This document shows positions 26,014 to 62,699 of a stretch of 64,000 nucleotides of DNA, piece by piece; within the stretch, counting starts at the first letter, position 1; the number at the start of each line of letters is the position of its first letter. The stretch spans positions 2,401,501 to 2,465,500 of the forward strand of contig NC_015958.1 in the NCBI RefSeq assembly GCF_000147695.2. The letters are read 5' to 3'. The translations under genes and the position numbers were made by a program. The DNA is from Thermoanaerobacter wiegelii Rt8.B1. GTDB lineage: Bacteria; Bacillota; Thermoanaerobacteria; Thermoanaerobacterales; Thermoanaerobacteraceae. Below the pieces are notes generated by a model. It was not told where the DNA came from. It was given only the letters and a program-made list of their open reading frames with translations, and did not search any database.

Positions 26014-26031
26014 TTTTCTTCCTCATACTAT

Positions 26032-26061: not shown

Positions 26062-26081
26062 TAATTTTATGTAGATTTAAT

Positions 26082-44326: not shown

Positions 44327-44381
44327 GTGCAAGGTAATTATATCACAAAATTCTTAAAATCTGAAGAGGTAATTTGGGAAT
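44327..44381 (+). pseudogene. ISL3 transposase N-terminal fragment
   Basis: AAGGAGG then GTG 44327 reads MQGNYITKFLKSEEVIWE, the N terminus of an ISL3 transposase, and is cut at about 44381 by the repeat also found at 26082. Confidence 0.6.
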
Positions 44382-44512
44382 CATCTTTTTGCTTTGTAGT
44401 CATTTCAAATTTCCACCCCTAAAATTTTTTACTCGCTCGTATCTGACAGCCTGGCACTATAGTTCACTTTCTTACGCCATGCGCCTACACCTCCTCATTT
44501 TTTATTTGCTTC
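44382..44512 (+). repeat. repeat unit B flank
   Basis: Matches 26082-26210 at about 85 percent by eye. It always precedes the hairpin element on the plus strand. On the minus strand it contains GAGGAGGTG plus an ATG followed by a stop within three codons. Confidence 0.6.
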
Positions 44513-44676
44513 TTGTTTGCCCCAGGCAGTTAAAACAAAACAGCCTGCAGGCAGGAGGTCAAGGTGGAGTCGAGGGATAAATGGAGGGGACCCTTTGGGG
44601 AGGAGGCCGTTTATGCTCGAAGGCACCTTGACCGCAAGACCCGCAGGCGTATAATCTTTTTCGCGGGGGCAAACAA
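44513..44676. ncRNA. unrecognised GC-rich structured element, copy B
   Basis: Outer stem TTGTTTGCCCC / GGGGCAAACAA; second stem GCCTGC (44543-44548) / GCAGGC (44643-44648); long conserved stem GGTCAAGGTG / CACCTTGACC; then TCGAG / CTCGA and ATAAATGG / CCGTTTAT toward the tip. Copy C shares the conserved stem and CAGTTAAAA but has different, still pairing, outer and second stems. Such compensation points to a folded RNA (or DNA hairpin). No family is recognised and the transcribed strand is unknown. Confidence 0.6.
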
Positions 44677-44712
44677 AAAAGCACGTTTGCTTTAAGAGGT
44701 GCATTACTTTAA

Positions 44713-44913: not shown

Positions 44914-45306
44914 TTAGAAAAATAAAGAAACTAGTGTTCCTATGGCAACAGCAGGTATAAAAGGAAGCCTTGTCTTGAACTTGCGTAGGATAAGAGAATA
45001 CACTAGAAAAATTATAGATGAAAATAAGAGAATAACCCATATTTTGAAACCAGCGTAAAAAGACAAAGTAGTTAAAACTTTCACGTCCCCACCACCTATT
45101 CCTCCTAGAAGCCAGAAAAGGAAGAGAACTGCAAACACCAGAAGAGAGTTGAATAAATAAAATTTTAGGCTCATATAAGGTTTCAAAAAGAAGTTAACAA
45201 AAGAAAGAATTAAGATGGAGGTAGGGTAGATATATCCCACCTCCATCTTTTTTATGTCTTCTGCAGCAGCGAAAAAGAGAATAATCAAAATCACAATCTT
45301 AATCAT
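44914..45306 (-). CDS. prepilin peptidase (A24 family, TadV/CpaA type)
   Basis: 130 residues, nearly all membrane helices. The two catalytic aspartates of A24 peptidases are visible in FAAAEDIKKMEV and GGIGGGDVKVL. It would cleave the leader of the Flp-like pilin and the pseudopilins encoded in the same operon. ATG 45306 overlaps the stop of the Trp-repeat gene (TGATG). The short length is normal for Tad-type peptidases. Confidence 0.85.
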   Translation of the reverse strand: MIKIVILIILFFAAAEDIKKMEVGYIYPTSILILSFVNFFLKPYMSLKFYLFNSLLVFAVLFLFWLLGGIGGGDVKVLTTLSFYAGFKIWVILLFSSIIFLVYSLILRKFKTRLPFIPAVAIGTLVSLFF

Positions 45307-46592
45307 CAAAATTTTATCACCTCTGAGTCTTTAATTGATTTTTTGAAGACAGGGTCAGGAATGTTAAATTTCGAATCTGCGTAAATACCGTTTATGGGTA
45401 TGTTCATATAGATTTCGAATGAGCCTCCGCCTTCTAAATCGAAGTAAACATACAGGGTTGAGCTTTCATCGCCCGGCTTTTCATACTGGAACTTCAGCAC
45501 AGCACTTCCTGAAGTGCCTCCGACATTTTTCGTGACTGAGTAAGGCTCCACATAGAGCACACCTTTGTTCTGATACCTGTTCACAACATGTATTGCTCTA
45601 ATGTTAGTAACTTTTTTGTTCAGTGCATACGAAACATTCAAAGTCATATCACAGACAGAGCCGTCGGGTAGTGTGTGCTTGTTTGTAAATACAAACTGAG
45701 GTGTTTTAGAAACAGAGATAGTGCCGTGCACTTCATCCCAATATCCGCTTTTGACCCACTCTTTGTATGTCTCCCAGTGAGAAGTGTCGACCCATACCTG
45801 TCTTGTTTCGTAGTGGCCGGGAACATCAACTACCCACTTCTGAGCCCAGTATCCGTCCTGCACCCATACTCTCTGCGTCTCCCAGTGTGACGTGTCTACC
45901 CATACTTTCTGTGCTGTCCAGTACCCGCTTGTGACCCACACTTTTTCTTCTTTCCAGTAACCGCTCTGAACCCAAACTTTTTCTGTTTTCCAGTAGCCAT
46001 CTTTTACCCAGATTTTTTGCACTTCCCAGTGCGAGGTGTCTACCCATACCCGCCTGTATTCCCAGTGTGCAGGGACATCTACAACCCAATGTCTTGTCTT
46101 CCAATCTACAAAACCATATGGTGAAACGGGAGGTTCCCAATGCCCTTTTTCTGGTACCCACACTTTTTCAGTTTTCCAGTAGCCACTCTCTACCCATACT
46201 TTTCTGTATTCCCAGTGTGATGTATCTACCCATACTTTTCTTGTCTCCCAGTGTGACGTATCTACCCAGACTTTTTTCGTTTCATAGTGCGAGGTGTCTA
46301 CCCACACCTGTTTGGTATCCCAGTACCCGCTTGTAACCCATGCCTGCCTTGTCTCCCAGCGTGAAGTGTCTACCCAATATTTTTCCCAGTGTCCCTGTTC
46401 AGGCACCCAGACCTGCTGTGCTGTCCAGTACCCGCTTGTAACCCACCTCTGCTTTGTCTCCCAGTGTGAAGTGTCTACCCATACTTTTGTGCCGTTTGAG
46501 TCGAGCTTTACCCAGTCTCCAGCGTAAGCAGGACTGCTGGCAGCGAAAATAAAAATTAAAGCAAATAAAAAAAGAGCCTTTAGCTTATTCAT
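45306..46592 (-). CDS. secreted protein of tandem Trp-rich repeats
   Basis: 428 residues with a signal peptide (MNKLKALFLFALIFIFAASS, cleaved near PAYA-G). Residues about 25-295 consist of some twenty repeats of 11-13 residues, such as KVWVDTSHWETR, KVWVESGYWKTE and KVWVPEKGHWEP. Each has two tryptophans and an aromatic or histidine pair. A non-repeat domain follows (about 300-428, beta-rich, GTISVSKTPQFVFTNKHTLP). ATG 46592 was chosen for GGGAGGTG nine bases upstream. It probably sits outside the cell as a carbohydrate- or surface-binding protein linked to the pilus. I know no named family. Confidence 0.75.
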   Translation of the reverse strand: MNKLKALFLFALIFIFAASSPAYAGDWVKLDSNGTKVWVDTSHWETKQRWVTSGYWTAQQVWVPEQGHWEKYWVDTSRWETRQAWVTSGYWDTKQVWVDTSHYETKKVWVDTSHWETRKVWVDTSHWEYRKVWVESGYWKTEKVWVPEKGHWEPPVSPYGFVDWKTRHWVVDVPAHWEYRRVWVDTSHWEVQKIWVKDGYWKTEKVWVQSGYWKEEKVWVTSGYWTAQKVWVDTSHWETQRVWVQDGYWAQKWVVDVPGHYETRQVWVDTSHWETYKEWVKSGYWDEVHGTISVSKTPQFVFTNKHTLPDGSVCDMTLNVSYALNKKVTNIRAIHVVNRYQNKGVLYVEPYSVTKNVGGTSGSAVLKFQYEKPGDESSTLYVYFDLEGGGSFEIYMNIPINGIYADSKFNIPDPVFKKSIKDSEVIKF

Positions 46593-46621
46593 TTTTAAAA
46601 GCACCTCCCTTGAATTTAGGC

Positions 46622-46648
46622 AAAATAAAAAAGCAGGTTAGACCTGCC
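46622..46648 (-). terminator. terminator between 46648 gene and Trp-repeat gene
   Basis: On the minus strand GCAGGT-CTA-ACCTGC then TTTTTTATTTT directly after the stop. It would reduce expression of the last genes or separate them into their own unit. Confidence 0.75.
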
Positions 46649-47475
46649 TATAAATTCTTTTTAGCCCATTCAACATATTCTTTTACATTGCTTTCACGCT
46701 TGATTTCGTAAAATTTGCCGTCTTTGTATTGAAAAACTGATTTAATATAGATTACTTTATTAGGCAACTTATTATTGACAAAAACAGTCACTGTTATTTT
46801 TCCACGATTATTTGGTTCATTTTCAATACTACTTTTATCGTAGTTAATATCATTTGCATATAAAAATTTTATCGAATTATCATTAATCGAAGCATATTTT
46901 AAAGCTTCATCAAGGAGAAGAGTGTTAAAAAGTACAGTATTTATTAAAGGATAATTTAATTTGCCTTCTATTATAAAGTACCTTTCCATTTCTTCTTGAG
47001 GAATTATAAGTTTGTCATTGAGTAACTTTAAATCGATTAGATAATAAGTACGTGTCTTTAAAATATATTTTTCTGCTTCTTTTGGAATTATATTAGAGTT
47101 TAATAACTGTATTTTAGGATTAGCATATACTCTTAAATCTCCAGGTTTCCCATAAGGTGCATTTTCTTTATAATCATATACTTTTAGATTTTCAAGAACA
47201 ATTTTTAAACAACTATTATCAAGTAATACAAACTGAACTCCATCTTTAAAATATCTATTTTTAAAATCTTCCAACAAAGGACTTAAATCTTTTCTTTCAT
47301 ATTGGAAGTAGGGACTAGGACCTTTGTGTATTATAGTAGTCCCTGAATCACCAATACTATACAACACACCTTTTACCTTTTCCTCCAGAGCCATTCTTTT
47401 GCTGTCGTCTTTATAAACCTGATACCCTGCTGCAATAAGTGCTGTAATTATCACTAAAGCTATTATTTTCTTCAT
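46648..47475 (-). CDS. membrane-anchored or secreted protein, unknown function
   Basis: 275 residues with an N-terminal hydrophobic segment (KKIIALVIITALIAAGYQVY) that is a signal anchor, then a mixed alpha/beta extracellular region with no motif I recognise. GGAGGTG lies before ATG 47475. The structured element at 47513-47674 lies in its leader. It may be a pilus accessory or sensor of the transfer apparatus. Confidence 0.6.
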   Translation of the reverse strand: MKKIIALVIITALIAAGYQVYKDDSKRMALEEKVKGVLYSIGDSGTTIIHKGPSPYFQYERKDLSPLLEDFKNRYFKDGVQFVLLDNSCLKIVLENLKVYDYKENAPYGKPGDLRVYANPKIQLLNSNIIPKEAEKYILKTRTYYLIDLKLLNDKLIIPQEEMERYFIIEGKLNYPLINTVLFNTLLLDEALKYASINDNSIKFLYANDINYDKSSIENEPNNRGKITVTVFVNNKLPNKVIYIKSVFQYKDGKFYEIKRESNVKEYVEWAKKNL

Positions 47476-47512
47476 GAAAGCTCACCTCCAGTTAAATTTT
47501 TCAAAAACCTGC

Positions 47513-47674
47513 TGCCGCCCTCCGGTCAGTTAAAATGGATAGGAATGCGGAGGCTGGAGGTCAAGGTGGAGTCGAGGGATACCGGACCGAGCGCAGGCGA
47601 GGGAGGATATGCTCGAAGGCACCTTGACCGGAAGCCCGACGCATTTATAAAATTTTTTGTGCCGGAGGGCGGTA
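47513..47674. ncRNA. unrecognised GC-rich structured element, copy C
   Basis: Outer stem TGCCGCCCTCCGG / CCGGAGGGCGGTA (13 pairs, one G-U); second stem AATGCG (47544-47549) / CGCATT (47640-47645); conserved stem GGTCAAGGTG / CACCTTGACC; TCGAG / CTCGA. Much richer in GC than its flanks. It fills the gap between the lipoprotein stop and the binding site of the 46648 gene. Compared with copy B, both outer stems differ in sequence but still pair. Confidence 0.6.
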
Positions 47675-47676
47675 AA

Positions 47677-48264
47677 TTAATACACGATATCTACTACCTC
47701 ATTATTTTTATCGACAAGTACCATTACCCAACTTCCTTTTTTAAGCTCATCTTTATTATACCTCACAGCTTTATCCGAGTCAGAAAATTTCTGCATAACG
47801 GTCTTATCCGAGGTAGTGTACTTTTCTTCCTTTCCATTTATGTCTAATACAACATAATTATCATTCGCTTCTTTCAAAATGCCCAGTATGCTTGTGCTTC
47901 TATCTTCAAGAGCTTCTTTTTTGCCCTGTGTAACGACATAAATATAATTTTCACCATTTTTTCTTACAATCTTCACAAACACTCCTTCCTTAATATCTTT
48001 AGGCATACCTTCTACAAATACACTTTTTTCATCTGTGAAATCATACTTAACTTTTTCTCCACTGCTTTCTAAAACTATTTCGTTATTCTCATAACTTACC
48101 ACAGTTCCTGCAGTAACCTCTTTTTGAGGATTTACTTTTTCATTTTGAACAGCTTCTTTTACAGTATTTTCGGCTTTGCCTGTATCTTTTTTTACATCAC
48201 TGCAGCCAGCCGCTAGGGAAAAGGTAAGAAACAGGACTAAAACAGAAATCAAAATCTTCTTCAT
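47677..48264 (-). CDS. lipoprotein of the Tad/conjugation operon
   Basis: 195 residues. The signal sequence ends in a lipobox (FSLAAGCSD), so it is anchored outside the membrane. After a Lys-rich linker, two similar beta domains follow (GTVVSYENNEIVLESSG and GILKEANDNYVVLDINGK), each of OB-like strand pattern. TAGGAGG precedes ATG 48264. Role unknown; it may be the outer pilus-base factor in place of the TadD/secretin parts that Gram-positive cells lack. Confidence 0.65.
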   Translation of the reverse strand: MKKILISVLVLFLTFSLAAGCSDVKKDTGKAENTVKEAVQNEKVNPQKEVTAGTVVSYENNEIVLESSGEKVKYDFTDEKSVFVEGMPKDIKEGVFVKIVRKNGENYIYVVTQGKKEALEDRSTSILGILKEANDNYVVLDINGKEEKYTTSDKTVMQKFSDSDKAVRYNKDELKKGSWVMVLVDKNNEVVDIVY

Positions 48265-48287
48265 ATCTTATCTACCTCCTCAAAAAT

Positions 48288-49115
48288 TTATTTTCTTTCA
48301 AAAACAAAGTTACATATTTTGTCTATTTCATTTTTAATGCTCTCAACCACTTTGTACTGAAGGTTCAGTTCTTTTGCATATTTTTTAAAATCTCTTGCCG
48401 GCCTCACAAATACCGTTAAAAACTCATAGGGAAACTCCTTCATTCTTGAAAATTCTCCCTCTGTTCCTTTTGACAGCACTAATATTTTTGCGGCATTATC
48501 AAGCGCAGCTTTAACAACTTCATTAAACTCATTTGGAAGGTCAAAAATTATCACATCAAACTTACTTCTTGCAAACTTAACAACCGCATCAACATCGTTT
48601 TCTTTAATATCTCTCACAAGGCTTGCTTTAGGAGGAGCCTGAAGTATAGATACATTTGAGCTGTACTCAACTAAGTTTTCAAAAAAGTTTTCTCTTGTTC
48701 TTTCCTTAAGCCACATTCCAATGTGTGGAAGAACAGGAAGGTCCAGCATAAAGCTTAAATCTGAACCTCCATCGTGGAAGTTTAAATCCACCACAAGCAC
48801 TTTTATATTTTTATCCAAACTTTCAAAGAGAGCTTTAACAAGTGTGGTTTTCCCAACACCACCCTTGAAGGAGTATACTGCGATAACTTCCTGCTTTAAA
48901 GGCCGTGTTTCTTTTTTCACTTGTTCTTCTTCCAGCTTCTTTACTGCACATCCGCCTAAGCTGTCTTTTACTAAATCGCTAACAATAAAATCGTACTTTT
49001 TCTTACTCAGCATAATCTCTGCGCTTTCTGCAGACAAAGCAGTATCAGCGTCTTCATAAACTTCTTTTGCTTTTTTAATGTAGTCCCTATCATTTGAAAC
49101 AATCAGCACTCTCAC
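48288..49115 (-). CDS. MinD/CpaE-like ATPase (TadZ type)
   Basis: 275 residues: an N-terminal receiver-like domain without the full acidic set (MRVLIVSNDRDYIKKAKEVY) and a MinD-type ATPase with deviant Walker A SFKGGVGKTTLVKAL and VVDLNFHDGGSD. TadZ/CpaE proteins place the pilus machine in the cell. The start overlaps the stop of the pseudopilin gene. A second MinD-like gene lies at 52937. Confidence 0.8.
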   Translation of the reverse strand: MRVLIVSNDRDYIKKAKEVYEDADTALSAESAEIMLSKKKYDFIVSDLVKDSLGGCAVKKLEEEQVKKETRPLKQEVIAVYSFKGGVGKTTLVKALFESLDKNIKVLVVDLNFHDGGSDLSFMLDLPVLPHIGMWLKERTRENFFENLVEYSSNVSILQAPPKASLVRDIKENDVDAVVKFARSKFDVIIFDLPNEFNEVVKAALDNAAKILVLSKGTEGEFSRMKEFPYEFLTVFVRPARDFKKYAKELNLQYKVVESIKNEIDKICNFVFERK

Positions 49116-49522
49116 TTCACATCCCTCGCTTTCGCCATGCCTGTTACAGTTATATCTCCTGAAATGCCGTACATTTCTCCTGAAACTGAAGCAGTAACGT
49201 AAATGTATCTGTTCTTAACAGTCACACTTACATCTTTAACAGGTATGCCTAAATCTTTAAATGTATTTACAGCTAAAGAATAAGCTTTGTTTGTGTCTAC
49301 AGCCAAATCTCCTGACTGGGCATACTGCATGTTTACAGCTGAAACTGCAATATTTAAAGCTATCTCATCGCACACCTTAACAAGCTCCTCCCTTGCACCT
49401 ACCCCTCTTGATATGCTGTAAACAGCGTACATGAAAAGGATTGAGAAAATCATCAAAAACAGCATGAAAAGGAGGACAGCATCTCCTCTTTTGTCTTTTA
49501 AAAAATCTTTCAAAGCTCTCAC
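49112..49522 (-). CDS. TadE/TadF-like pseudopilin
   Basis: 136 residues. KDKRGDAVLLFMLFLMIFSI is the short basic leader and hydrophobic helix of TadE-type pseudopilins; a globular beta domain follows (VKDVSVTVKNRYIYVTASVS). Overlaps both neighbours by four bases, so translation is coupled. Confidence 0.75.
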   Translation of the reverse strand: MRALKDFLKDKRGDAVLLFMLFLMIFSILFMYAVYSISRGVGAREELVKVCDEIALNIAVSAVNMQYAQSGDLAVDTNKAYSLAVNTFKDLGIPVKDVSVTVKNRYIYVTASVSGEMYGISGDITVTGMAKARDVK

Positions 49523-49911
49523 GGTGCATCACCAAGCTTTAAAGAGCTTTTACCCGCAAGAATTTTCTGCTGCCCTCCTAAAAGAGTAAAGGTGTACTTA
49601 ACTTCTACAGTCAGCATATCATTTTTCACCGATGTGCTGACAGAAAGCCTGTCTCCTATTTTCCATCCAGTTATTCCATTTCCAAAGTTTACAACAGCCA
49701 TTTGAGCAGTCTGCTCCGGAGTGTCTGACTTTATCCCTATCCTCGCTCCTTCAAAAGCAGCTTCATTCACCAATGTCTGCATATTGCTTACTACAGAAAT
49801 ATTAACTATAGAAGCCATGATAAGAAGAAGAATAGGAATAAGGGCAGCTGAAGAGATAAGCTGTGATGCTGCCCTTTTGTCTTTTAAAAATCTTCTTATC
49901 ATCTTAATCAC
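49519..49911 (-). CDS. TadE-like pseudopilin
   Basis: 130 residues with RRFLKDKRAASQLISSAALI at the N terminus, a leader and helix of pseudopilin type, then EAAFEGARIGIKSDTPEQTA, typical of TadE proteins. GTG 49911 overlaps the pilin stop (GTGA); ATG 49902 is an alternative. Confidence 0.75.
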   Translation of the reverse strand: MIKMIRRFLKDKRAASQLISSAALIPILLLIMASIVNISVVSNMQTLVNEAAFEGARIGIKSDTPEQTAQMAVVNFGNGITGWKIGDRLSVSTSVKNDMLTVEVKYTFTLLGGQQKILAGKSSLKLGDAP

Positions 49912-50129
49912 TTGCCCTGAACGGCACTGTTGAAAAAACTAGAGGCGTAGTTCATAGCACTGTTTATCATGTTCAAAATTCCCTCTCTTAATGTAGGAGA
50001 AGCCACAACCAGTATCCCGACTACAACTGCGATTAAACCTACAGTTGATAAGAGATTGTGGTCACCTTTTCTGTCTTTAAAAAATTTTCCCACCACTTCC
50101 TTAACTTTTGCTAATAAAGCCTTCACCAT
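49908..50129 (-). CDS. Flp-type major pilin candidate
   Basis: 73 residues: basic leader (KEVVGKFFKDRKGDHN), then one long hydrophobic helix (LLSTVGLIAVVVGILVVASP) and a short polar tail. Length and layout fit a Flp pilin or a TcpC-like small membrane pilin. AAGGAGGTAG lies just before ATG 50129. With the peptidase at 44914 it would be processed at the G/D of KGD. Confidence 0.7.
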   Translation of the reverse strand: MVKALLAKVKEVVGKFFKDRKGDHNLLSTVGLIAVVVGILVVASPTLREGILNMINSAMNYASSFFNSAVQGK

Positions 50130-50159
50130 AAAACATCTACCTCCTTAAAAATTTTACTT

Positions 50160-50909
50160 TTAAAACAGATTAAAGAAGCTTCTCAAGGATATAACAAAAG
50201 GCAGTGCAAACATGACTAAAATTGGAACAAAATAGCCCAAAAAGATAGGGAAGAAGAGGCTGTTGTCAAGAGTTCCTGCTCTTTCAATCTTCTGATTGTA
50301 GTTTCTTTCTTCAACCTCTTCCAAAAGCTCTTCAAGGTTTTCCCTCATATCTTTCACTGACTCATACTCTCCTGTCACAGCCTTTACAAATCTTTTAAAG
50401 TGGTCGTTTAAGCTTTTATCTGCTGCGAAGGTAAGCGCATCTTTTAAAGAGCTTCCTGTATCAATTCTTACCTGTGCTTCATAGAGAAGGTCCCTCACCA
50501 CCCCCTTTCTGGTCCTCACAATGTAGCCTATTATATTTTCCTTATTCATTCCCACCTCCAGCCCGCTTATAAATACTTCTAAAGCAGCAGGGAGCTCTTC
50601 TTCTTTATAGAAGCTCTCCCTGTAGCTTTCTATGGGGCTTCTCCAGTACTGGTAAAACATAATAGCTGAGCCTATAAACACAGAAAAAAGAGCAAAAACA
50701 TTTGCTCCGTTAAGTGCGCCTACTGCTGTCAGAACAAGAAGGCCTCCTAAAACCAGAGCAGCAAAAGAAAAAAGCTCAAGCACATCATGAGCTTTAAAGA
50801 AAAGTATCTTCACTCCTCCTACTGCCTTAATTTCCTTATCCCACTTTTCTATCATGTCCTGCCTTATTCCAAGCTTTTGAAGGTATTTTTCTGAAACAAT
50901 CCTTCTCAT
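50160..50909 (-). CDS. tadC: TadC-like platform protein
   Basis: 249 residues with a type II secretion F domain: GLEVGMNKENIIGYIVRTRK, DTGSSLKDALTFAADKSLND and C-terminal membrane helices. Partner of TadB in the inner-membrane platform on which CpaF acts. Overlaps tadB by four bases. Confidence 0.78.
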   Translation of the reverse strand: MRRIVSEKYLQKLGIRQDMIEKWDKEIKAVGGVKILFFKAHDVLELFSFAALVLGGLLVLTAVGALNGANVFALFSVFIGSAIMFYQYWRSPIESYRESFYKEEELPAALEVFISGLEVGMNKENIIGYIVRTRKGVVRDLLYEAQVRIDTGSSLKDALTFAADKSLNDHFKRFVKAVTGEYESVKDMRENLEELLEEVEERNYNQKIERAGTLDNSLFFPIFLGYFVPILVMFALPFVISLRSFFNLF

Positions 50910-51811
50910 AGCTCCATCTCCTTATCTATTTTCTTAAGCACATAAAATGTTGAGATAAAGTAGCTTAGAGCTGCATAAGCAATAACAATCCTACCTGCAG
51001 GTGTCGAATAAGCTTTTACAAAATCGGGGCTTGACATCATAGTTACTGCAATCATCACAGCCATTACTCCGGCAAGAGATACCATCAAAGACTTTGCCTG
51101 CACAGTCATTGCAGCAATTTTATTTGACATCTTTATCCTCTCATAAAGCTTTTTAGCCGTTCTCTCACACACTCTTGATAGGTCTGATTTCATCCTTACA
51201 GCAAAGATTATGCTGTCAGCCCATGCCTTTATATATGTGCTCTCCACATTCTTAAGCTCTTGAAGGGCTGTTTCTATGTCTTCTCCCAGCTCAAACTTTC
51301 TTACGACCCTGTCTGTGTGCTCTTTCAAAGGACTTTCAGCTTCCTCCGCTGCCTTGATAAAAGCTCCTGCAAAGCTCGGCACCATTTTAAGATATGCCCC
51401 GAGCATTTTAACAAAATCTTTAAACTGCTCCTCAATTTTTCTAACTCTTCTTCTTCCTAAGTAGTCAAGAATGTAGTCAATCAAGTAGTAAAGCATAAAA
51501 GGGAGTGCTGCTCCTAAGGCTGTAAATCCTTTTAGGCTCAAACTGATGGAAGAGAGAACAGAAAGGAGGAGAAACCACAGAAACACTTCCTCCGCATCTG
51601 CTTTAATGCCGCTTTTCTTAAGCTTTCTATCTAACTTTTCAATGAATTTTCTTAAGCCGAACAAGTCTGTTATGCTGAACTCATTTTTTTGAGGAGATAC
51701 CAAATGCCTCTCAAGCCTTCTTTTAAGCTTAAGCCTTTTTTCTTCTCTTATGCTGTACAGAAGAACTACCGCCATAAACACAGCTGCTCCAAATAAAAAA
51801 GAGACTGTCAT
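50906..51811 (-). CDS. tadB: TadB-like platform protein
   Basis: 301 residues with N-terminal membrane helices and a type II secretion F domain (EQFKDFVKMLGAYLKMVPSF, then GEDIETALQELKNVESTYIK) and two C-terminal helices. AGGTG precedes ATG 51811. It sits two bases after the CpaF gene, the standard order cpaF-tadB-tadC. Confidence 0.8.
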   Translation of the reverse strand: MTVSFLFGAAVFMAVVLLYSIREEKRLKLKRRLERHLVSPQKNEFSITDLFGLRKFIEKLDRKLKKSGIKADAEEVFLWFLLLSVLSSISLSLKGFTALGAALPFMLYYLIDYILDYLGRRRVRKIEEQFKDFVKMLGAYLKMVPSFAGAFIKAAEEAESPLKEHTDRVVRKFELGEDIETALQELKNVESTYIKAWADSIIFAVRMKSDLSRVCERTAKKLYERIKMSNKIAAMTVQAKSLMVSLAGVMAVMIAVTMMSSPDFVKAYSTPAGRIVIAYAALSYFISTFYVLKKIDKEMEL

Positions 51812-51813
51812 TT

Positions 51814-52971
51814 TCAGTCACCTACCACATAATTCAAGATGTATTCTCCATTTTCATCTATACCTTCAATTTCAACAACTTCAGCAAGCTCCCTTCCTTT
51901 TATGTTTCCTTTTTCATCTTCAGCAAGCCTTAAAAACACAACAATGTCAACAGCTCTTGAGATAAGCTTTCTTATGATTCTGTAGTCAAGATTTTTAAAC
52001 TCCTGTACTAACATCTCAAGCCTTAACAAAGCATCCAAGCAGGAATTTGCATGTATTGTAGTCATAGAGCCTCTGTGACCGCTGTTTAAAACATGTATAA
52101 GTTCATAGGCGCTTTCAGGTGTACGTATTTCTGTCAAAATTATTCTATCAGGGTCTGCTCTCAAGCAGTCTTTTAAGATGTCAGAGTAGGTCACATCTTT
52201 TGCTTCAGCCGTTCCTTTTCTTGTTTTGAAGTAGTACACATATGGTATGTGAAGCTTAATCTCTCTTGTATCTTCCAGTACTGCTACAACATGCTTCTCC
52301 TGAATCTCAAATCCTAAAGAGTTGATAAAAGTAGTCTTTCCTGCGCCTGTTTCTCCTGCAGCTATGATGTTTTTTCTTTCCTTTACAGCCTTTTTAAAGT
52401 ACTCCTGCATTTTTTCAGTAAGCCCTGCTGTTGTTTTTGCAAGCTCTTCTAAAGGCACATTTAAAAGATTGTGCTTTCGAATGATTATAACAGGCTTATC
52501 AGATTGAGGAGGTATAACTAAAAGAGCTCTGGATCCGTCATAAAGCTCCGCATCCTGTGATGGATTAGCTATGTTTATGGATTTATTTAAGGGTGCAAGG
52601 ATTCTGTCCTGTATGACCCTCACAGCCTGCTCATTAGGAAACTCTTCTTCTGCGTCTATTTTTACTCCTGCTTTTTTGTACATTATCTTTGTGCCGTTCA
52701 CATGTATATCCGTAACTTCGGGGTCCTTAAGGTACTTCTCTATAATTCCCAAGCCGTATAGAGAAGAGTAGTGCATTTCTGTGTACTCCATAAGCCTATC
52801 CAGTGCAAAAGGGTATTTCTTTCTGAGATATTCCTTCACTTCTTCCCTCAGTATCTCCTTAATATTCGGCTTGCCGTGGTGCTTCATCATAACTTCCCTT
52901 ATATCATCAGTCATCCTCTCAACATCCACTGCTCCATCATTTATCTTTCTGCTTAACTCTCTTAAAGCCAT
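51814..52971 (-). CDS. cpaF: CpaF/TadA secretion ATPase
   Basis: 385 residues of the VirB11/PulE family, CpaF branch. Walker A is AAGETGAGKTTFINSL, the Asp box ILKDCLRADPDRIILTEIR, and GHRGSMTTIHANSC carries the His box. It powers assembly of the Flp pilus. AAGGAGG lies eight bases before ATG 52971, which overlaps the preceding gene by 35 bases. A VirB11 role for the transfer channel is the alternative, but TadB and TadC directly follow. Confidence 0.9.
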   Translation of the reverse strand: MALRELSRKINDGAVDVERMTDDIREVMMKHHGKPNIKEILREEVKEYLRKKYPFALDRLMEYTEMHYSSLYGLGIIEKYLKDPEVTDIHVNGTKIMYKKAGVKIDAEEEFPNEQAVRVIQDRILAPLNKSINIANPSQDAELYDGSRALLVIPPQSDKPVIIIRKHNLLNVPLEELAKTTAGLTEKMQEYFKKAVKERKNIIAAGETGAGKTTFINSLGFEIQEKHVVAVLEDTREIKLHIPYVYYFKTRKGTAEAKDVTYSDILKDCLRADPDRIILTEIRTPESAYELIHVLNSGHRGSMTTIHANSCLDALLRLEMLVQEFKNLDYRIIRKLISRAVDIVVFLRLAEDEKGNIKGRELAEVVEIEGIDENGEYILNYVVGD

Positions 52972-53662
52972 TTAAAAGCCTCCTTAGCAGAGATTTTTCT
53001 TTTTTTACCTCAAATAGAGCATCTTTTAAATTTTTGGCGTGCTTTATCATTTTCTTATTTTTGTACTCATTCAATTTTCGAATATAAGGGATGTCATAAA
53101 TGACCGGTATCCCTAAATCTACAGCAGTAATGTATTTCTTTTTTCCCTTTGCCTTGTTAACTACTGCACAGGCCCTGCTTGTATCTAAAAAGCCATGCAG
53201 CTTTAAGTATTCAAGTATTCCGACAGTCCTTGAAACTGCTGATATGTCATCTTCTAAAACAAACAAAACTTTATCAGCTTTTAAAAGAGGAGGAACACTA
53301 ACCTCAGAAATCTGAGGCTGTAAGTCTATCAGCACATAATCATATTCACCTGAAAGGCTGTCAATAAGCTCTTCCATATCTGAATACTTTAAATTTTCCT
53401 GCATGTCTGGAAATCCGCCGACTATGACGTCAAATTTTTCACCGGTCGGTCTTTGAAGGCAGGCTTTATAATCTCCCAGACATGCATTGACTATGTTTTT
53501 CTCTTTCTCTAAATCAAGTAAAGACACAAAATCTCCGGGAGAAAAATCCACCTCCACTGCACAGACTTTTTTATCTTCTGACAGCACTTTCGCAAGAGCC
53601 AGTGTAAGTGTAGTTTTCCCAACACCGCCTTTTGGACTGAACACTGTTATTATCACTTTCAT
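52937..53662 (-). CDS. MinD/ParA-like ATPase (CpaE-like)
   Basis: 241 residues with Walker A FSPKGGVGKTTLTLAL and the switch region YVLIDLQPQISEVS. Without a receiver-like domain of its own; the separate protein at 54191 could supply it. ATG 53662 overlaps the CpaB stop (TGATG). One of two MinD-like proteins in this operon. Confidence 0.8.
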   Translation of the reverse strand: MKVIITVFSPKGGVGKTTLTLALAKVLSEDKKVCAVEVDFSPGDFVSLLDLEKEKNIVNACLGDYKACLQRPTGEKFDVIVGGFPDMQENLKYSDMEELIDSLSGEYDYVLIDLQPQISEVSVPPLLKADKVLFVLEDDISAVSRTVGILEYLKLHGFLDTSRACAVVNKAKGKKKYITAVDLGIPVIYDIPYIRKLNEYKNKKMIKHAKNLKDALFEVKKEKSLLRRLLNGFKRVKQKDK

Positions 53663-54207
53663 CACCTTCTTACAACCTTGAATGAGTTAAGCTTTAAGTA
53701 CGGCACAAGCTGTGCTGCAGAGTTTAAATCTGCATCCAGAATCAGGCTTGCCTTATCGGAGTCTTCCCTTATGACTGAAATAACTTTAAAGCCCTCAATG
53801 ACTTTCGACCCTGTTTGGTCAAAAACTATGAAGCTCACTGTACTTCCTGATTGAAGCGTCTTTGCTTCTACAGAGGTAACAGGAACTGTCATTACAGCAC
53901 GGTCAGGACTTAAGGGTTGAGCATCTTTTGAAGTTAAAATTTCAACTGGAATGAAGTCTCCTTTCACTCTTCCATCCTTTACAACTTTTCCTACAACATC
54001 GGCTGGGCTTCTGGCATAGCTAGGATTAACTACTGAAGCAGGCACATCAATTACTTTTACTGCATCCTCTGAAATGACAGTACCTGCCGGTATATCTTTT
54101 TCCACAACAACCACTTTCTCTGTCTTTTGAATATTCTGCATGAACACAAGCATAAAAGCTGCAGAAACAGCAGCCGTTATTAAAGCAATCTTAATAATCC
54201 TGCTCAT
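53662..54207 (-). CDS. cpaB: CpaB/RcpC-like SAF-domain protein
   Basis: 181 residues: one N-terminal membrane helix and a SAF domain (VVEKDIPAGTVISEDAVKVI, then GDFIPVEILTSKDAQPLSPD), as in CpaB, which guides the pilus through the envelope. AAAGGAGG precedes ATG 54207. Confidence 0.82.
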   Translation of the reverse strand: MSRIIKIALITAAVSAAFMLVFMQNIQKTEKVVVVEKDIPAGTVISEDAVKVIDVPASVVNPSYARSPADVVGKVVKDGRVKGDFIPVEILTSKDAQPLSPDRAVMTVPVTSVEAKTLQSGSTVSFIVFDQTGSKVIEGFKVISVIREDSDKASLILDADLNSAAQLVPYLKLNSFKVVRR

Positions 54208-54802
54208 AAAGAACCTCCTTTACAAGAAGCTTTTCAATCTCTAAAAGGCCTTCATTTAAATCGGTACACCGGTAGTTTTCACCCAAAAACTTTGCTATGC
54301 CCTCAATCTGCTTTTTTGCTTTCTCAACCTCCTTTGAAGGCTCTCTTCTCTTTTCTTCAGCTTGAAGTGAAATGTCCAGCACTCCTGTATGCCATCTTGC
54401 AGCTTGAGTGTAGGCTGCAGGAGGAGATAGGAGGACTTTTTTCACTGCTTCGCCCCATTCTGTGTCTTTACCGCCTGCTATTATGTCGTATATCCCGAGG
54501 CTTACTATAGAAGAAACTAATACATCTCCCGGCTTTCTGTCGTGGACAATAACAGCTACCCTTGTATTAGGTCTTGCTATTCGGAAGCTTTGGAGGGAAG
54601 GAACAGCTTCTTTTTCATTATCTAGAACTTTTAAGTCTACAATTAAAACATCAGAAGGAACTCTTGCAGCAGAGTAGAACACATCCTTGATTTTCTCACC
54701 ATCTAACTTTCCTATATGCTCAAAAACCAGGTCACCTGCCTGCCTTATAGACTCTTTTATCTTTTCCGCCGTTTCTCCTAAAGCAATAAGTGAAACAAGC
54801 AA
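54191..54802 (-). CDS. receiver-like protein of the Tad module
   Basis: 203 residues. The first 120 have the alternating strand/helix pattern of an atypical receiver (DVLIVDLKVLDNEKEAVPSL, then NTRVAVIVHDRKPGDVLVSS), the rest a helical charged tail. It resembles the N-terminal half of TadZ and may pair with the MinD-like protein at 52937. TTG 54802 was chosen because AAAGGAGG lies seven bases upstream. Confidence 0.6.
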   Translation of the reverse strand: MLVSLIALGETAEKIKESIRQAGDLVFEHIGKLDGEKIKDVFYSAARVPSDVLIVDLKVLDNEKEAVPSLQSFRIARPNTRVAVIVHDRKPGDVLVSSIVSLGIYDIIAGGKDTEWGEAVKKVLLSPPAAYTQAARWHTGVLDISLQAEEKRREPSKEVEKAKKQIEGIAKFLGENYRCTDLNEGLLEIEKLLVKEVLYEQDY

Positions 54803-54818
54803 GTCCAAACCTCCTTTC

Positions 54819-55730
54819 TTACTTAAAAAAATCTAATGGATTTACGGCTTTCCCTCCGATTCTTACCTCAAAGTGAAGGTGAGGTCCTGTGCTTTTACCT
54901 GTAGAGCCCACATATCCAATCACATCACCAGCTCTTACAATTTGTCTCTGCTTAACTGCTATGGAAGATAAGTGGGCATATCTTGTCTCTAAATTGCTGT
55001 TGTGCCATATAAAAACAACTAAGCCGTAGCCGTCGTTCCATCCTGCGTAGGCTACTTCTCCATCTAAAGCAGCTCTAACAGGTGTTCCTGCTGGTGCTCC
55101 TATATCCACACCGGCGTGAAGTCTTTCTACTCCGTATACTGGGTCAATTCGAGGACCAAACCCTGAAGTAATGTTATATATGCCCGGTACAGGCCATTTA
55201 AGAGTTTTCTCAGCAGGCACCCATCCATCAGGCACTCCTGAATCTAACAAAGAAGAGATATCTGTATTTTTGAGAAATTCAAGAAACTCCTTAACCTTGT
55301 CTTTTTCTTCTTCCGTGAAGTCAAGCATATTTAAGACTTCGTCTAAGCTCAAAAGCTTATACACCGGGAAGTGCAGCCCCTTCTCTGTGACAACTTCTCC
55401 TACATTTTTAATAAACATTTGTGCAAGATTGTACGCTCTTTCGGGGCTGGCTTTAGAAAAATCCTGCTCAAACCTCACAGCGTCTACAGCAACAAGCTCC
55501 CTCCAGTCAGGACCCATTTTAAACTCTTCTTTAACTTTTTCTGCTGCGTCGATATACCATTTTAACTGCTCTGCATTAATAAGTGGTACCTTCTCAAAAG
55601 CAGTAATGGGGCCTGCAAAAATTACAGCAATCACTAAAACAGGGACAACAACAAAAAGGAGAGCAAATTTAAAAATGCTCTCCAAATCATCCGGAAGAAG
55701 TGCTAAAAGCACTTTTCCTAAAACATTCAT
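54819..55730 (-). CDS. M23 peptidoglycan hydrolase
   Basis: 303 residues: a membrane helix near the start (ALLFVVVPVLVIAVIFAGPI), a helical region, and a C-terminal LytM/M23 domain with SGFGPRIDPVYGVERLHAGV and THLHFEV-type PHLHFEVRIGG, giving the H-x3-D and H-x-H zinc ligands. Conjugative systems of Gram-positive cells use such enzymes to open the wall. Overlaps the VirB4 stop (TGATG). Confidence 0.85.
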   Translation of the reverse strand: MNVLGKVLLALLPDDLESIFKFALLFVVVPVLVIAVIFAGPITAFEKVPLINAEQLKWYIDAAEKVKEEFKMGPDWRELVAVDAVRFEQDFSKASPERAYNLAQMFIKNVGEVVTEKGLHFPVYKLLSLDEVLNMLDFTEEEKDKVKEFLEFLKNTDISSLLDSGVPDGWVPAEKTLKWPVPGIYNITSGFGPRIDPVYGVERLHAGVDIGAPAGTPVRAALDGEVAYAGWNDGYGLVVFIWHNSNLETRYAHLSSIAVKQRQIVRAGDVIGYVGSTGKSTGPHLHFEVRIGGKAVNPLDFFK

Positions 55731-57517
55731 CAGCTTCCGCCTCCAGTTAAGTACTGCATTTCATAGGGTGCAGCCTCAATCTTTATGTGAATTCGCTGTG
55801 TGCCTGCAACAAAAAGACCTTCTCCTCTTTTTGCATTTGCTAAAAGGTCATGCTCTGCTTCAGATAAGTTCATGAGATATGTTACTGCCTCCAAATCTTT
55901 TTCTCCCTGCGCAAGAAGGAGCTTGTAAGTCGGATTATCCAGTAAAGCTTGGCCGTACCTCTGAACTTCAGGAGCAAGGAAATCAATTATATTTTGACTG
56001 ATTACAACAAGACTTCCGTTGTACTTTCTTATCCTTTTTGATGTATCCCTCAAAAATGCAATTGCCTGAGGTGTCTGTGGGTCTACAAGCATCCATGCTT
56101 CATCCACAACCAAAACAGTTCTCTCTCTTTTATCCCTTTCAAGTATGTTCCATGCAAAAGAGAGCACATTAAAATACTGCGCTCTTTTAACTTGGTCTTC
56201 TGCATTCTGCAGATCATGAACATCAAAAACAATAAAATCAGAGTCGGCCTCTACAGCAGTTGGGCCTGCCCAAAGGTATGAATCTGCTCCTTCTGCTGCT
56301 CTTTTCAAAAGCACTGAAAGCCTTCCATAGGTTTCAGGATTTTCTTCCGCTTTTTTAACAAGGTGTTTATACAATACCCTTACAGTAGGCCACTTCTCAT
56401 TTGGGATGTCTTTTGGGTCTGTATCCCATGTAATCCCTGCTTCCTTATACACTTCCACTAATGCATCCTCTAAAGCTGCTTTTTCTGTGTCTGTGAGATC
56501 TCGGAGATACAGACTAAAAAATGTCCTTAATGTTTGGACATGTAAAGCTAACGGACTTTGAAAGGTTATGTTCTGCTTTTCTTCGTCTTCCTCTTCAATT
56601 GGTCTCAACCTTACCTGAAGTGGATTTATCTTTCCTTCTCCACCTGTGCAGTTAATCCACACCCCTCCAAGCTTATTACACATGTCTTTATACTCTCTTT
56701 CAGGGTCTATGATTATGATTCTGCTCCCCTGCATGTACTCTCTTAAAAGAAGCATTTTAGCAGTAAAGCTCTTTCCTGCACCGGGCTTTGCAAGAATAGT
56801 CCAGTTAGAGTTTGTCCTGTCTCCTCCTCTTTTCCATATATCAACTAAAACTAGCCCACCGTCTTTGTCTTTTCCCAAAACAACACCGCTTCCATCATTT
56901 ATACCTGAAGCAGTGAAGGGGAATGAGGCAGCGGCTGTTTCAGCAGGCATGTTTCTTGCTCCTGCTTCTTTCACTTCATCCGGCAGTAGGGAGAAGGGAC
57001 CTGCTGCTTTAAGCCCTTCTTCTTGGCGGAATATTAAAATTCTTCCCCTCATACCTGAAGCAGCTAAAGAAGCCTCAACCTGCCGTGTTCTTCTGTCAAG
57101 CTCCTGCTGGTCAGAAGCTAAAACCATAAGGACGACTGTAACGTAAAACACCTGCTGCTGCTCTTGGTCTATTTTTCTCATAAGCTCTTCTGCGTCTTTC
57201 AAAGCCTGCTCAGTTCTCTGCATGGAAAGAGCATTTCCACCCATCTCAAGCCTTCCTGCATATTCACCAATAGCCTTATTTAAGCTATTTATTAAATTTG
57301 TAGGGTCAGTAGGCTCAATGTGAACTGAACACACTACACCCGGCATTCCAGCAATTCTTGAAAGCCATGCAGGATTTACCTTAGGAGGATAGCCTGCAAT
57401 GACTAGAATTCTTGCAAGCTGGTCGTTGAACACAATCTGTTTTGCACTAAACTCAAGAGCCTGAGGAGAAATCATATCTATTAAGCCTGTAAGCACATTT
57501 ACTTCTTTTTTCTTCAT
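55730..57517 (-). CDS. VirB4/TraE-type conjugation ATPase, catalytic part
   Basis: About 595 residues. NWTILAKPGAGKSFTAKMLL is Walker A, RTVLVVDEAWMLVDPQ Walker B, and SLVVISQNIIDFL the following motif of VirB4 ATPases. The usual N-terminal domain is encoded by the separate upstream gene 57523-58137, so the protein is split into two genes. GAGGTG lies six bases before ATG 57517. It drives substrate transfer and pilus/channel assembly. Confidence 0.9.
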   Translation of the reverse strand: MKKKEVNVLTGLIDMISPQALEFSAKQIVFNDQLARILVIAGYPPKVNPAWLSRIAGMPGVVCSVHIEPTDPTNLINSLNKAIGEYAGRLEMGGNALSMQRTEQALKDAEELMRKIDQEQQQVFYVTVVLMVLASDQQELDRRTRQVEASLAASGMRGRILIFRQEEGLKAAGPFSLLPDEVKEAGARNMPAETAAASFPFTASGINDGSGVVLGKDKDGGLVLVDIWKRGGDRTNSNWTILAKPGAGKSFTAKMLLLREYMQGSRIIIIDPEREYKDMCNKLGGVWINCTGGEGKINPLQVRLRPIEEEDEEKQNITFQSPLALHVQTLRTFFSLYLRDLTDTEKAALEDALVEVYKEAGITWDTDPKDIPNEKWPTVRVLYKHLVKKAEENPETYGRLSVLLKRAAEGADSYLWAGPTAVEADSDFIVFDVHDLQNAEDQVKRAQYFNVLSFAWNILERDKRERTVLVVDEAWMLVDPQTPQAIAFLRDTSKRIRKYNGSLVVISQNIIDFLAPEVQRYGQALLDNPTYKLLLAQGEKDLEAVTYLMNLSEAEHDLLANAKRGEGLFVAGTQRIHIKIEAAPYEMQYLTGGGS

Positions 57518-57522
57518 ATAAA

Positions 57523-58137
57523 TCACCTCGTATTAAAAATGGGTGGTAAGTATGGTCCGTTAAAAGCTGGCGCTCTTTCAAAAGCTGCCTGAGACGGATG
57601 GCTGAAGCTGAAGAGAAGGTCTATTATGTCTTGGTCTGCTGCTAATTCTATCTTTAACCCTGATTTTTCAAGATTATTGGCAAGCTCATGGGCTTTTGCT
57701 TTTAACTCTTCTTTTTCTCTGCCTGAGAGCATAATAAAAAAGCGCCTTTCTACTGCTTCACCGCTTGTGACAATAGAAGCGACATATTTTAAGTACTCCT
57801 GAAGTAATCTTTTTTTAGTTATGTTTGTCTCTTCCTTAGATTTTGTTTGAAGGCAGCTGATGTATGAGTCAAGGTCTACTGGTCTTCCTATAGAAAATAT
57901 CTGCATGGAATCCTTAAACCCGTTTAGAGCTTCATAAACTGTCTGTATAATTCTTTTCTTTTCATTTTCACTTTTTAAGATGATGTTCAAAGGCATTACC
58001 TTTAAAACACACACATATCTTCCATCCTTTAAAACCATTAAATCCTCTGCAACATCTTTTACAGGAAGCCACTCCTGAACAGCCTTTCTTTTCTGCTCTT
58101 CTATTTTTGCCTTATCTTTTTTAAAAATCCCAATCAA
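57523..58137 (-). CDS. VirB4 N-terminal-domain protein (TraC-like)
   Basis: 204 residues, like the N-terminal domain of TraC/VirB4 proteins: LVLKDGRYVCVLKVMPLNII-type start (LMVLKDGRYVCVLKV), FSIGRPVDLDSYISCL and RRFFIMLSGREKEELKAKAH. TTG 58137 follows GGGAGG at nine bases. The stop lies six bases before the ATG of the ATPase gene. Confidence 0.75.
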   Translation of the reverse strand: MIGIFKKDKAKIEEQKRKAVQEWLPVKDVAEDLMVLKDGRYVCVLKVMPLNIILKSENEKKRIIQTVYEALNGFKDSMQIFSIGRPVDLDSYISCLQTKSKEETNITKKRLLQEYLKYVASIVTSGEAVERRFFIMLSGREKEELKAKAHELANNLEKSGLKIELAADQDIIDLLFSFSHPSQAAFERAPAFNGPYLPPIFNTR

Positions 58138-58439
58138 TCTCTAAAACCTCCCTGCACATAAAGATATCTTTTCTGCTTCTTGCTCCATTTGAGGTAGTAT
58201 TTGATTAAACTTAAAACACTGCTTCCGTCAGGTCCGGGAATAACCAAAAAATAAGCAAGGCCTGTAAAAATAAACACTGCTAGGTATCTAGCAGGAGAGT
58301 AAGTAAAGATAGATAAAATCAAATAAACAAAAAAACCCAGCGAAAGGCCTGCAAGCACAAAAAAGAGCTCTTTCCAGCCGAAGCCCGGAAAAAACTCAAA
58401 CTTTGCAGAAATATTTCTAGGTATTTGATACAACTGCAT
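58134..58439 (-). CDS. PrgI family (VirB3-like) membrane protein
   Basis: 101 residues with the PrgI pattern: YQIPRNISAKFEFFPGFGWK, then two adjacent membrane helices, and a conserved YLKWSKKQKRY tail. It sits next to the VirB4 genes, as in other Gram-positive type IV systems. Confidence 0.88.
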   Translation of the reverse strand: MQLYQIPRNISAKFEFFPGFGWKELFFVLAGLSLGFFVYLILSIFTYSPARYLAVFIFTGLAYFLVIPGPDGSSVLSLIKYYLKWSKKQKRYLYVQGGFRD

Positions 58440-59305
58440 CACCCTCTCATCATAACTCTTCTTAATATATACATGCTGCCTGCTGTCTGTCCTGCATGGC
58501 CTATGGCAGAGCCAAGTCCTGAATGATATGCAAACTGCCTTAAAACAGCAGGAGTTTTAAATGCAACCCACAGCCAGCCTATAAGCATTAGAAGATTTAA
58601 TACAGGCTGACTAAACTGCATGTTTACTCCTGTTGAGAGAAAGCCCCTAATCATAAAAGTCTGCACAGCCTGAGATAAAGACAAAACAATAAGCTCTCTC
58701 CACCACACAGACCACACACCCTCATCAGGGCGTGTTAAACCCACTGCCATGATTGGAGCAGACACTGCAAGAAAAGCAACTTCAACTGCTCTTATGCCTG
58801 TTTGGATGAGAATTAGAATCCATATAACTACTGCTGTAAGAGCTATAAAAATAACAGCGGTAGAGAAAGAAGAAAGCTGCTGAAGAACTGCAGTAATTCC
58901 TGCGGTAGGATTGCCTGTCTGCGTAGAAGGCAAAGACGCTGCAGCTTTTGCAAGCTCTGTGCCCCATTCGTACACCGTTGTCACTGCCCAAGGACCTGTT
59001 GAAATCATCAAAGCAGCAAAAGCAGTTCTTTTAAGAAGCTCCAAAGGCTGCGCTGATGAATCTCCTGAACTGTATAAGATGTATGCCTTTAATGCCTCAG
59101 CAGCTACTTTCACTCCTAGAAGAGTACCTGCGACTACTTTTGTAAGGTAAATTGCATTATTTACATAAGGTGTATTTAAAATCTTCAAAGCCAGTGCCAT
59201 CTCATCTCCCAAAAAAGAGACAAAAAGAGAAAGGAGACTGTCCAGTATATTCGTGAAAAAATTATTTACAGCATTCATAATCATATTTTCTAAAGCAGCA
59301 AACAA
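58439..59305 (-). CDS. TrbL/VirB6-like channel protein
   Basis: 288 residues with five or six membrane helices and a soluble C-terminal tail (RQFAYHSGLGSAIGHAGQTA). GVWSVWWRELIVLSLSQAVQ is a conserved stretch of this family. TTG 59305 was chosen because GGAGGTG lies seven bases before it; the longer reading would start inside that site. Confidence 0.82.
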   Translation of the reverse strand: MFAALENMIMNAVNNFFTNILDSLLSLFVSFLGDEMALALKILNTPYVNNAIYLTKVVAGTLLGVKVAAEALKAYILYSSGDSSAQPLELLKRTAFAALMISTGPWAVTTVYEWGTELAKAAASLPSTQTGNPTAGITAVLQQLSSFSTAVIFIALTAVVIWILILIQTGIRAVEVAFLAVSAPIMAVGLTRPDEGVWSVWWRELIVLSLSQAVQTFMIRGFLSTGVNMQFSQPVLNLLMLIGWLWVAFKTPAVLRQFAYHSGLGSAIGHAGQTAGSMYILRRVMMRG

Positions 59306-59350
59306 GAAAAACACCTCCAAAAAGGGCCGGCATAATCCGACCCTTTAAAA

Positions 59351-59593
59351 TTACTTGAAGTAGGATAAAAACACCTTAACAATTGAAGCTGCGCTCATTC
59401 CTATTGCACCGCCTATCAGGATATTCCTGATAGACCTATTATGTGCAGCTGTAACGGCAGGGTCGCCGTCTCCCATCTGCTTCATCAAAGCATGGTACCC
59501 TATAGCTGCGCCAGATGCAGCAGGTATAATGTAAAGAATCCATGTTAAGACATCATTTAAAAGCTTAACAGCACCAGAGACAAAACTCGGCAT
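59351..59593 (-). CDS. VirB2/TrbC-like small membrane protein
   Basis: 80 residues with two hydrophobic helices (VLTWILYIIPAASGAAIGYH and NILIGGAIGMSAASIVKVFL) flanking a polar loop, the VirB2-like pattern. AGGAGGAG precedes ATG 59593. It lies between VirD4 and VirB6, as expected. Confidence 0.75.
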   Translation of the reverse strand: MPSFVSGAVKLLNDVLTWILYIIPAASGAAIGYHALMKQMGDGDPAVTAAHNRSIRNILIGGAIGMSAASIVKVFLSYFK

Positions 59594-59605
59594 AAAATCT
59601 CCTCC

Positions 59606-61438: not shown

Positions 61439-62699
61439 GGCTTTCACCTCTTTCTGCTGTTCTTCTTTTCTTCTCCATTTCTTTTTGAGCTGCAATGGTA
61501 GACTCTGCTTCTGCTCTTAACCTTTCTCTTTCTAGAGCTCTCCATGCTGAGCGCCATACTGAGTTTGTGAGCCTTGCTGTGTCCACCGTTTTTTCTTCCT
61601 GCAGCGCTGCTGCGCCTCTCAGTACAATCTGAGATACTCTTTTTTGTATGTCTTCATAAGCTTTTTCTGCTGCTTTTTCTAAAGCTTCGTGATTTGATGT
61701 GTAGTGGCTGGCGAGCTCTTTGGCAAGTTCTTTATATCTTTCAACAGATTGAGAAAAACCGGGCTGCTTTAAAAGCCAGTCTGCAGCTTCCTTTGCTTTT
61801 TCTTTTACTTCAGGAGGCATGTAAGCAAAAGCAATGCGTCCATGAGATGGCATAATCTTTGAAAGCTCCTTGAGCTTTTCCAGAAGCTCTTCTCTTGTAA
61901 TCTGGTCAAGGGTAGGGGGGAGGCCGGGCTTTTCTCCTTCTAATGCTTTTACTTTTACCCTCGCACTTTCAACTTTTCTTAAGACATTCACAATATCATT
62001 TCTTGCTGTATCTCTTATGAGGTCTCTTACTGCTGATTTTTCTGCTGTAAGCGCAAGCCTTTCTTTAGCGTATATTTCATTTAAAAATATCTTTTTTATG
62101 TCTTTTATCTCACCTTTTGAAAGTTTTCCCCGACGCCTCTGGGGTGTTTTCTCCCACATTACAACATGTACATGTGGATGACCTTTTTTCTGATGAAAAG
62201 CAGCGACCCACCTCAGATTTGACCCTGGTATACCCATTTTAGCTGCTGCATCTGATATTGTAGCTCTAAGAGCTTTCTCCCATGACTCTCTTGTTGTATA
62301 TCCAAGTTTTACAGCGTCTTCTTCCTTAAGTGACAGAATAAACCGCCAAGCAATACCTGAATGCTTACTCAGCTCTTTCATTGTCTCTTTTAGACTAACT
62401 TTATCTTCCGAGCTGAAAAGCCCATGGCTTCCCGGTCTTTCATCCATATACTTTACGTGTCCTGCAGGAGTACCGGCAGTATCTATCTCGAGATTATCAA
62501 TAAAATCATCAATGCTGTCATATTTTGAAAGTATTTTCTCTGCATATCTTTTCCCTGCATCTAATTCTTCCAATTCATTAAATTCACCTTTATCTACACC
62601 TGATCTGGTTCCTATATATAAAAGATGTGCGACGTTTTTTGCCTGATTTTCTTGTGTAGGTAGATAAAAACTTGCTATCATTACAAAGGGAGCTGTCAT
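61428..62699 (-). CDS. MobL-type (MOBP) relaxase
   Basis: 423 residues. The histidine cluster HQKKGHPHVHVVMWEKTP (about residue 170) is the metal site of HUH relaxases of the MobL group, with the preceding GIAWRFILSLKEEDAVKLGY. The likely catalytic tyrosine lies near the N terminus in the family; LLYIGTRSGV is a candidate segment here. A long charged coiled-coil tail follows. It would nick the oriT at about 63263, some 560 bases upstream of its start. Confidence 0.88.
   Translation of the reverse strand: MTAPFVMIASFYLPTQENQAKNVAHLLYIGTRSGVDKGEFNELEELDAGKRYAEKILSKYDSIDDFIDNLEIDTAGTPAGHVKYMDERPGSHGLFSSEDKVSLKETMKELSKHSGIAWRFILSLKEEDAVKLGYTTRESWEKALRATISDAAAKMGIPGSNLRWVAAFHQKKGHPHVHVVMWEKTPQRRRGKLSKGEIKDIKKIFLNEIYAKERLALTAEKSAVRDLIRDTARNDIVNVLRKVESARVKVKALEGEKPGLPPTLDQITREELLEKLKELSKIMPSHGRIAFAYMPPEVKEKAKEAADWLLKQPGFSQSVERYKELAKELASHYTSNHEALEKAAEKAYEDIQKRVSQIVLRGAAALQEEKTVDTARLTNSVWRSAWRALERERLRAEAESTIAAQKEMEKKRRTAERGESREI

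Follow-up and report, generated by a model that had tools for sequence, protein, structure and literature searches.

A Frpo-like family of candidate single-stranded DNA promoters in conjugative elements of Bacillota

We describe a family of long hairpins that probably constitutes a class of single-stranded DNA promoters of Bacillota conjugative elements, Frpo-like in action, which host RNA polymerase would use, judging from their fold and promoter boxes. The family shares no sequence relation with F-plasmid Frpo. Three copies lie in a stretch of 64,000 nucleotides of Thermoanaerobacter wiegelii Rt8.B1 (NC_015958.1, positions 2,401,501 to 2,465,500; hereafter the window). Computation established the family itself, its covariation, the folding strand, the placement of the promoter boxes, the orientation of adjacent genes, the conjugative context and the polarity of the hairpins relative to a candidate nic site.

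A preliminary description of the window had claimed two related elements with compensating stems and a truncated third copy, and these claims were borne out. Copies B (44512-44677, plus strand) and C (47512-47675, with plus as the folding strand), both proposed single-stranded DNA promoters, are long imperfect hairpins at the positions where they had been placed. Both are far more stable than shuffled sequences: RNA folding of the two gave -86.1 and -76.7 kcal/mol, with z = -8.0 and -6.6, and none of 200 shuffles was equally stable. Common to both are the ten-pair core stem (GTCAAGGTGG/CACCTTGAC), the TCGAG/CTCGA stem and CAGTTAAAA, whereas the outer and second stems differ in sequence with pairing kept in each. 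Copy C lies in a minus-strand operon, 2 bases past a stop codon and 37 bases ahead of the next gene start, in agreement with the earlier statement that one copy precedes an operon gene; this neighbour (46648-47475, minus strand) encodes 275 aa without a Pfam match and has the ribosome-binding site (RBS) GGAGGT at 47484-47489. Copy A (about 26080-26236, plus strand) consists of the 5′ flank and 5′ arm as in B and is then interrupted by an IS21-type insertion, adjoining an istB gene (IstB Pfam match), to which its 3′ part was lost. The left flanks of B (44380-44512) and A (26000-26212) hold decayed gene starts (RBS, ATGGCGTAA) of a gene that is intact beside other copies (MTAREIAEEIRKNLKKHG...).

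Copies were found in 12 of 61 genomes by a blast-level search. Twenty distinct copies were aligned to build the covariance model R1, which detected members in 18 of 398 Bacillota genomes and in 14 of the 20 genomes of the window's taxonomic family; with the model R2, the count was 22 of 398 Bacillota genomes. The opposite strand of true copies scores 30-46 bits in the model, so the palindrome alone yields that much; weak distant matches were counted only if the conserved tip described below was present. In genome contigs, a relaxed DNA pattern returned 11 stretches, including records of Thermaerobacter, Desulfovirgula and Caldanaerobacter, and an exact-core pattern, which was too strict, returned no match. 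Two queries of a plasmid collection gave no match, and the 45 pattern matches in viral contigs were dismissed as chance, none being confirmed by the covariance model. The published T. kivui megatransposon concerns a different locus. An Rfam search, which the preliminary description had proposed as a check, yielded no window match that reached a gathering score, and around the elements it returned nothing relevant at E <= 5; raiA, HEARO, ROOL, GOLLD, retron and other Rfam families did not reach their gathering scores, and the family is thus absent from Rfam.

The preliminary description had further held that the elements would be plain hairpin repeats if more copies lacked covariation. Among 37 distinct rows, we counted 333 double-change cells compared with 90 +/- 7 in shuffled and 38-85 in slid alignments; double changes occurred at 38 of 48 pairs, and 94% of cells were paired. 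Although these rows had been fitted to the model, an alignment made from sequence only gave 88 compared with 27.6 in its control. Because covariation is strong in the added copies, the elements are not plain hairpin repeats. On the plus strand, G-U pairs outnumber A-C pairs (74 and 38 cells; binomial p = 9e-4, an optimistic value because the copies are related), which argues that the plus strand is the folding strand. The best-folding strand is the one opposite to the strand of the neighbouring gene, and the fold is predicted, with extrapolated parameters, to persist at 65-70 C.

From the base upward, the hairpin begins with an outer stem of free sequence and conserved pairing, followed by an A-rich 5′ loop (CAGTTAAAAC in the window's bacterial family) that faces TATAAT, a second stem, a small third stem with flanking G-A mismatches, the ten-pair core and the tip. 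In copy C, the 5′ arm of the outer stem (47513-47525, plus strand), proposed as the template strand at the hairpin base, pairs with the 3′ arm (47662-47674, plus strand), which would be the non-template strand of the first transcribed bases. Two forms of the tip occur, ATACCGGA..GGAGGATAT and ATAAATGGAGGGGACCC..GGAGGCCGTTTAT, and no other part of the hairpin is as strongly conserved in sequence; by alignment, the tip spans 47577-47614 (plus strand) in copy C (GGGATACCGGACC...GGAGGATATGCTC). That its conservation exceeds that of the promoter boxes lies outside what a single-stranded DNA promoter model accounts for, and we count this against the model. The tip loops (window 47577-47614) are mostly GNNA/GNAB or GNA and suit stable DNA hairpins.

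The 3′ arm reads as a sigma-A promoter, with TTGACC paired in the core stem, 16 bases of spacing, TATAAT in an unpaired bubble and the duplex base beneath. In copy C, the DNA fold and promoter scan place the -35 box TTGACC (47624-47629, plus strand) in the paired core stem, and the -10 box TATAAA (47646-47651, plus strand) follows after 16 bases in an unpaired internal loop; copy B has TTGACC at 44628-44633 and TATAAT, in an unpaired loop, at 44650-44655 (both plus strand). The group of genomes G072 and G278 has TTGCCG, 17-19 bases and mostly an extended -10 (TGTTATAAT), with which such weak -35 boxes are mostly combined. Folding with DNA parameters at 55 C gave a mean probability of being unpaired of 0.60 at the -10 box and 0.11 at the -35 box, and the -10 box was more open by >0.2 in 34 of 35 copies. 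Promoter scores were higher on the plus than on the minus strand, again in 34 of 35, and exceeded those of shuffles in most copies. Shortly past the promoter, several copies have by sequence a terminator-like hairpin and T-run. Some distant copies (L102, L109 and L107) have no clear -10 box, which also counts against a promoter. Frpo2 of F, scanned for boxes as a folding control, was hairpin-rich, but a simple rule did not recover canonical boxes in it, which makes this control uninformative.

In 35 of 41 copies, the opposite strand encodes the gene that adjoins the hairpin at its 5′ side, and 24 have it within 200 bases; in most copies, the 5′ flank has an RBS-like motif. Polymerase that started in the bubble and left the base of the single-stranded DNA hairpin would therefore transcribe this gene. 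Elsewhere, the genes beside the hairpins include ArdC, RadC (twice), HicA, HicB, HEPN/MNT, DUF4258 and DUF5348, which resemble the gene content of plasmid leading regions (PMC11541004). The neighbour of copy B is degenerate, a point against the promoter reading.

Two RNA-based explanations bear on the same arrangement. A hairpin just upstream of a gene's RBS, and in copy C within an operon, is what a cis-acting leader RNA transcribed from the minus strand ahead of that gene (attenuator, antiterminator or riboswitch) would look like, but wobble pairs and tandem G-A loops speak for the plus strand, the promoter boxes are conserved on the plus strand, and there is no Rfam match; we regard such a leader as improbable. 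Slightly less probable still is the idea of the preliminary description, a free-standing plus-strand structured RNA. Purine-rich GNNA-like loops and G-U wobbles are compatible with it, but inspection found no promoter-like sequence between the hairpin and the RBS of the divergent gene, and because the conserved promoter boxes are inside the 3′ arm, a transcript from there would omit most of the hairpin. The suggested structured family thus stands as new, covarying and absent from Rfam, but RNA is not its best reading, given a folding strand opposite to the gene and a promoter in the 3′ arm; where the hairpins lie, on which strand and in what mobile surroundings all suit a fold of single-stranded DNA. 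Other candidates were rejected: an integron attC site (no ends of attC type, gene on the wrong side) and a retron msr-msd (no reverse transcriptase seen nearby), and an invertible promoter and a group IIC intron were considered and set aside.

Between 44.9 and 62.7 kb, the minus strand of the window encodes a conjugation module comprising a MobL relaxase (61428-62699), a VirD4-type coupling protein (T4SS-DNA_transf, 59606-61495), TrbL, a VirB4-like ATPase (TraG P-loop, 55730-57526) and an M23 peptidase, followed by a Tad-type pilus set of CpaF, two T2SSF-like proteins, TadE, a TadZ-like protein and a prepilin peptidase. Such a fusion of a MobL/VirD4/VirB4 module with a full Tad pilus set (44914-62699) is likewise seen in G278, G072 and G153. 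A secreted-looking protein of 432 aa without a Pfam match, with repeats such as WVDTSHWETK, is encoded at 45306-46604 (minus strand). In other genomes, most copies have a MobL or VirD4 gene in their vicinity. The copies L034 (G007), L033 (G010) and L110/L111 (G013) occur in genomes with no match to either gene, and some of these adjoin CRISPR type III-like or ATPase genes; they are probably left over from former conjugative elements.

Upstream of the relaxase module, a candidate oriT (63237-63268) consists of an inverted repeat and, on its 3′ side, the candidate nic site CTTATCCTG|CATTA (63255-63268, plus strand), with the expected nick at 63263/63264. The P-type nic consensus, known from RP4 and R64, is YATCCTG|Y, and the candidate motif fits it. 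More generally, the DNA ahead of the relaxase module has a short inverted repeat that precedes CTTATCCTGC[AC]TTA, and the sequence of the repeat varies among genomes. The nic motif is present in 16 of 36 genomes, and a reversed control pattern in 0 of 36. In all 13 genomes with both on one contig (G000, G419, G001, G004, G012, G015, G017, G153, G144, G311, G072, G278 and G374), CTTATCCTGCMTTA lies upstream of the relaxase on the hairpin strand; the match in G072, G278 and G374 is only to the shorter CTTATCCTG, and a further copy in G001, an inverted duplicate about 118 kb off, was left out of this polarity count. If the motif marks oriT, as its sequence suggests, the candidate nic site makes the plus strand the transferred strand, as the promoter reading predicts. 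The divergent copy L107 (G390), without a clear -10 box, lies on the same strand as a nearby VirD4 gene and is the sole exception seen to the polarity.

Measured along the transferred strand past the nic site, some hairpins come soon, at about 1 kb in G311, about 4 kb in G278 and about 3.4 kb in G072. Several copies, including B and C, are on the late-entering side of the candidate nic site, in contrast to Frpo with its strictly leading position; we count this against the promoter reading, and a purely leading-region role is supported for some copies at most. The dispersal of copies in varied contexts might suggest a small palindromic mobile repeat without a regulatory role, but they are oriented uniformly with respect to both genes and nic site, several strains have kept orthologous copies in the Tad operon, and covariation is phylum-wide, all of which makes this a very remote prospect.

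We propose that the hairpins act as single-stranded DNA promoters in the following way. When conjugation transfers one strand, here the plus strand, the element would fold into a long hairpin with the -35 box in duplex, the -10 box in a pre-melted bubble and a duplex base, an arrangement like the open complex of RNA polymerase. Host RNA polymerase could initiate in the bubble and proceed to the hairpin base, past which it would copy the transferred strand, which serves the adjacent gene as template. Within double-stranded DNA, the identical boxes would face away from this gene, often toward a nearby terminator, so that the gene would be on only during entry. Such a promoter would fire only until the entering strand becomes double-stranded and would turn on establishment genes in the new cell. 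The use by RNA polymerase, the production of mRNA rather than, or besides, a replication primer and the timing are what we infer from these features.

The same strand and boxes would also serve a single-strand origin (sso), in which RNA polymerase, recruited by the transferred strand in its folded form, makes the primer of the complementary strand, with gene expression as a secondary effect or none at all. Single-strand origins of Gram-positive plasmids and ICEBs1 are folded RNA polymerase promoters (PMC4595007), and several copies along one element would speed conversion. Priming does not need the observed siting by the RBS of opposite-strand genes, and we consider an sso unlikely as the main role. 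Because F Frpo both primes and expresses genes, the promoter and sso readings are not exclusive. The family resembles the ssoA and ssoU types and sso1 of ICEBs1 in that folded single-stranded DNA is read by RNA polymerase as a promoter (PMC4595007), and differs in that sso types make replication primers and the hairpins adjoin gene starts.

Single-stranded DNA promoters of the Frpo/ssi type are established for the enterobacterial plasmids F and ColIb-P9 (Masai & Arai 1997; PMC9849209), and Frpo-type promoters have been looked for by similarity in other elements (PMC11541004). In both Frpo and the present family, a hairpin on the transferred strand would rebuild the -35 and -10 boxes by folding, the gene has the transferred strand as its template, several copies lie a few kb apart, and anti-restriction and toxin-antitoxin genes are associated. 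Unlike Frpo, the family spans the phylum Bacillota, has its own conserved tip, belongs to MobL elements and has several copies beyond the leading region. Model R2 found no match in the leading region of the F plasmid (L123, positions 50000-67500), and we therefore do not file the family as a homologue of Frpo. A more far-reaching version, in which a Bacillota-wide class evolved independently of Frpo, a dedicated factor binds the tip and the whole element is transcribed from the entering strand, several operons at once, is possible but rather doubtful.

The pLS20-family Bacillus plasmids, with a MobL system, offer another parallel, because their EGeRS1 are high-GC inverted repeats before establishment operons that include ardC (PMC8708921). 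These are 420-750 bp long with no promoter identified, and because the transferred strand is the non-template strand, their authors judged a single-stranded DNA promoter highly unlikely (PMC8708921). By contrast, the present hairpins are about 165 bp, with the transferred strand as template. In the literature consulted, mostly outside subscription papers, we found no established Gram-positive single-stranded DNA promoter, and how the protective genes of pLS20 are expressed before the second strand is made has been called unknown (PMC8708921). If our reading is true, a Frpo-like family in Bacillota would explain early expression of protective genes in MobL elements, and the hairpins would provide a sequence handle for the establishment and anti-defence genes that adjoin each of them.
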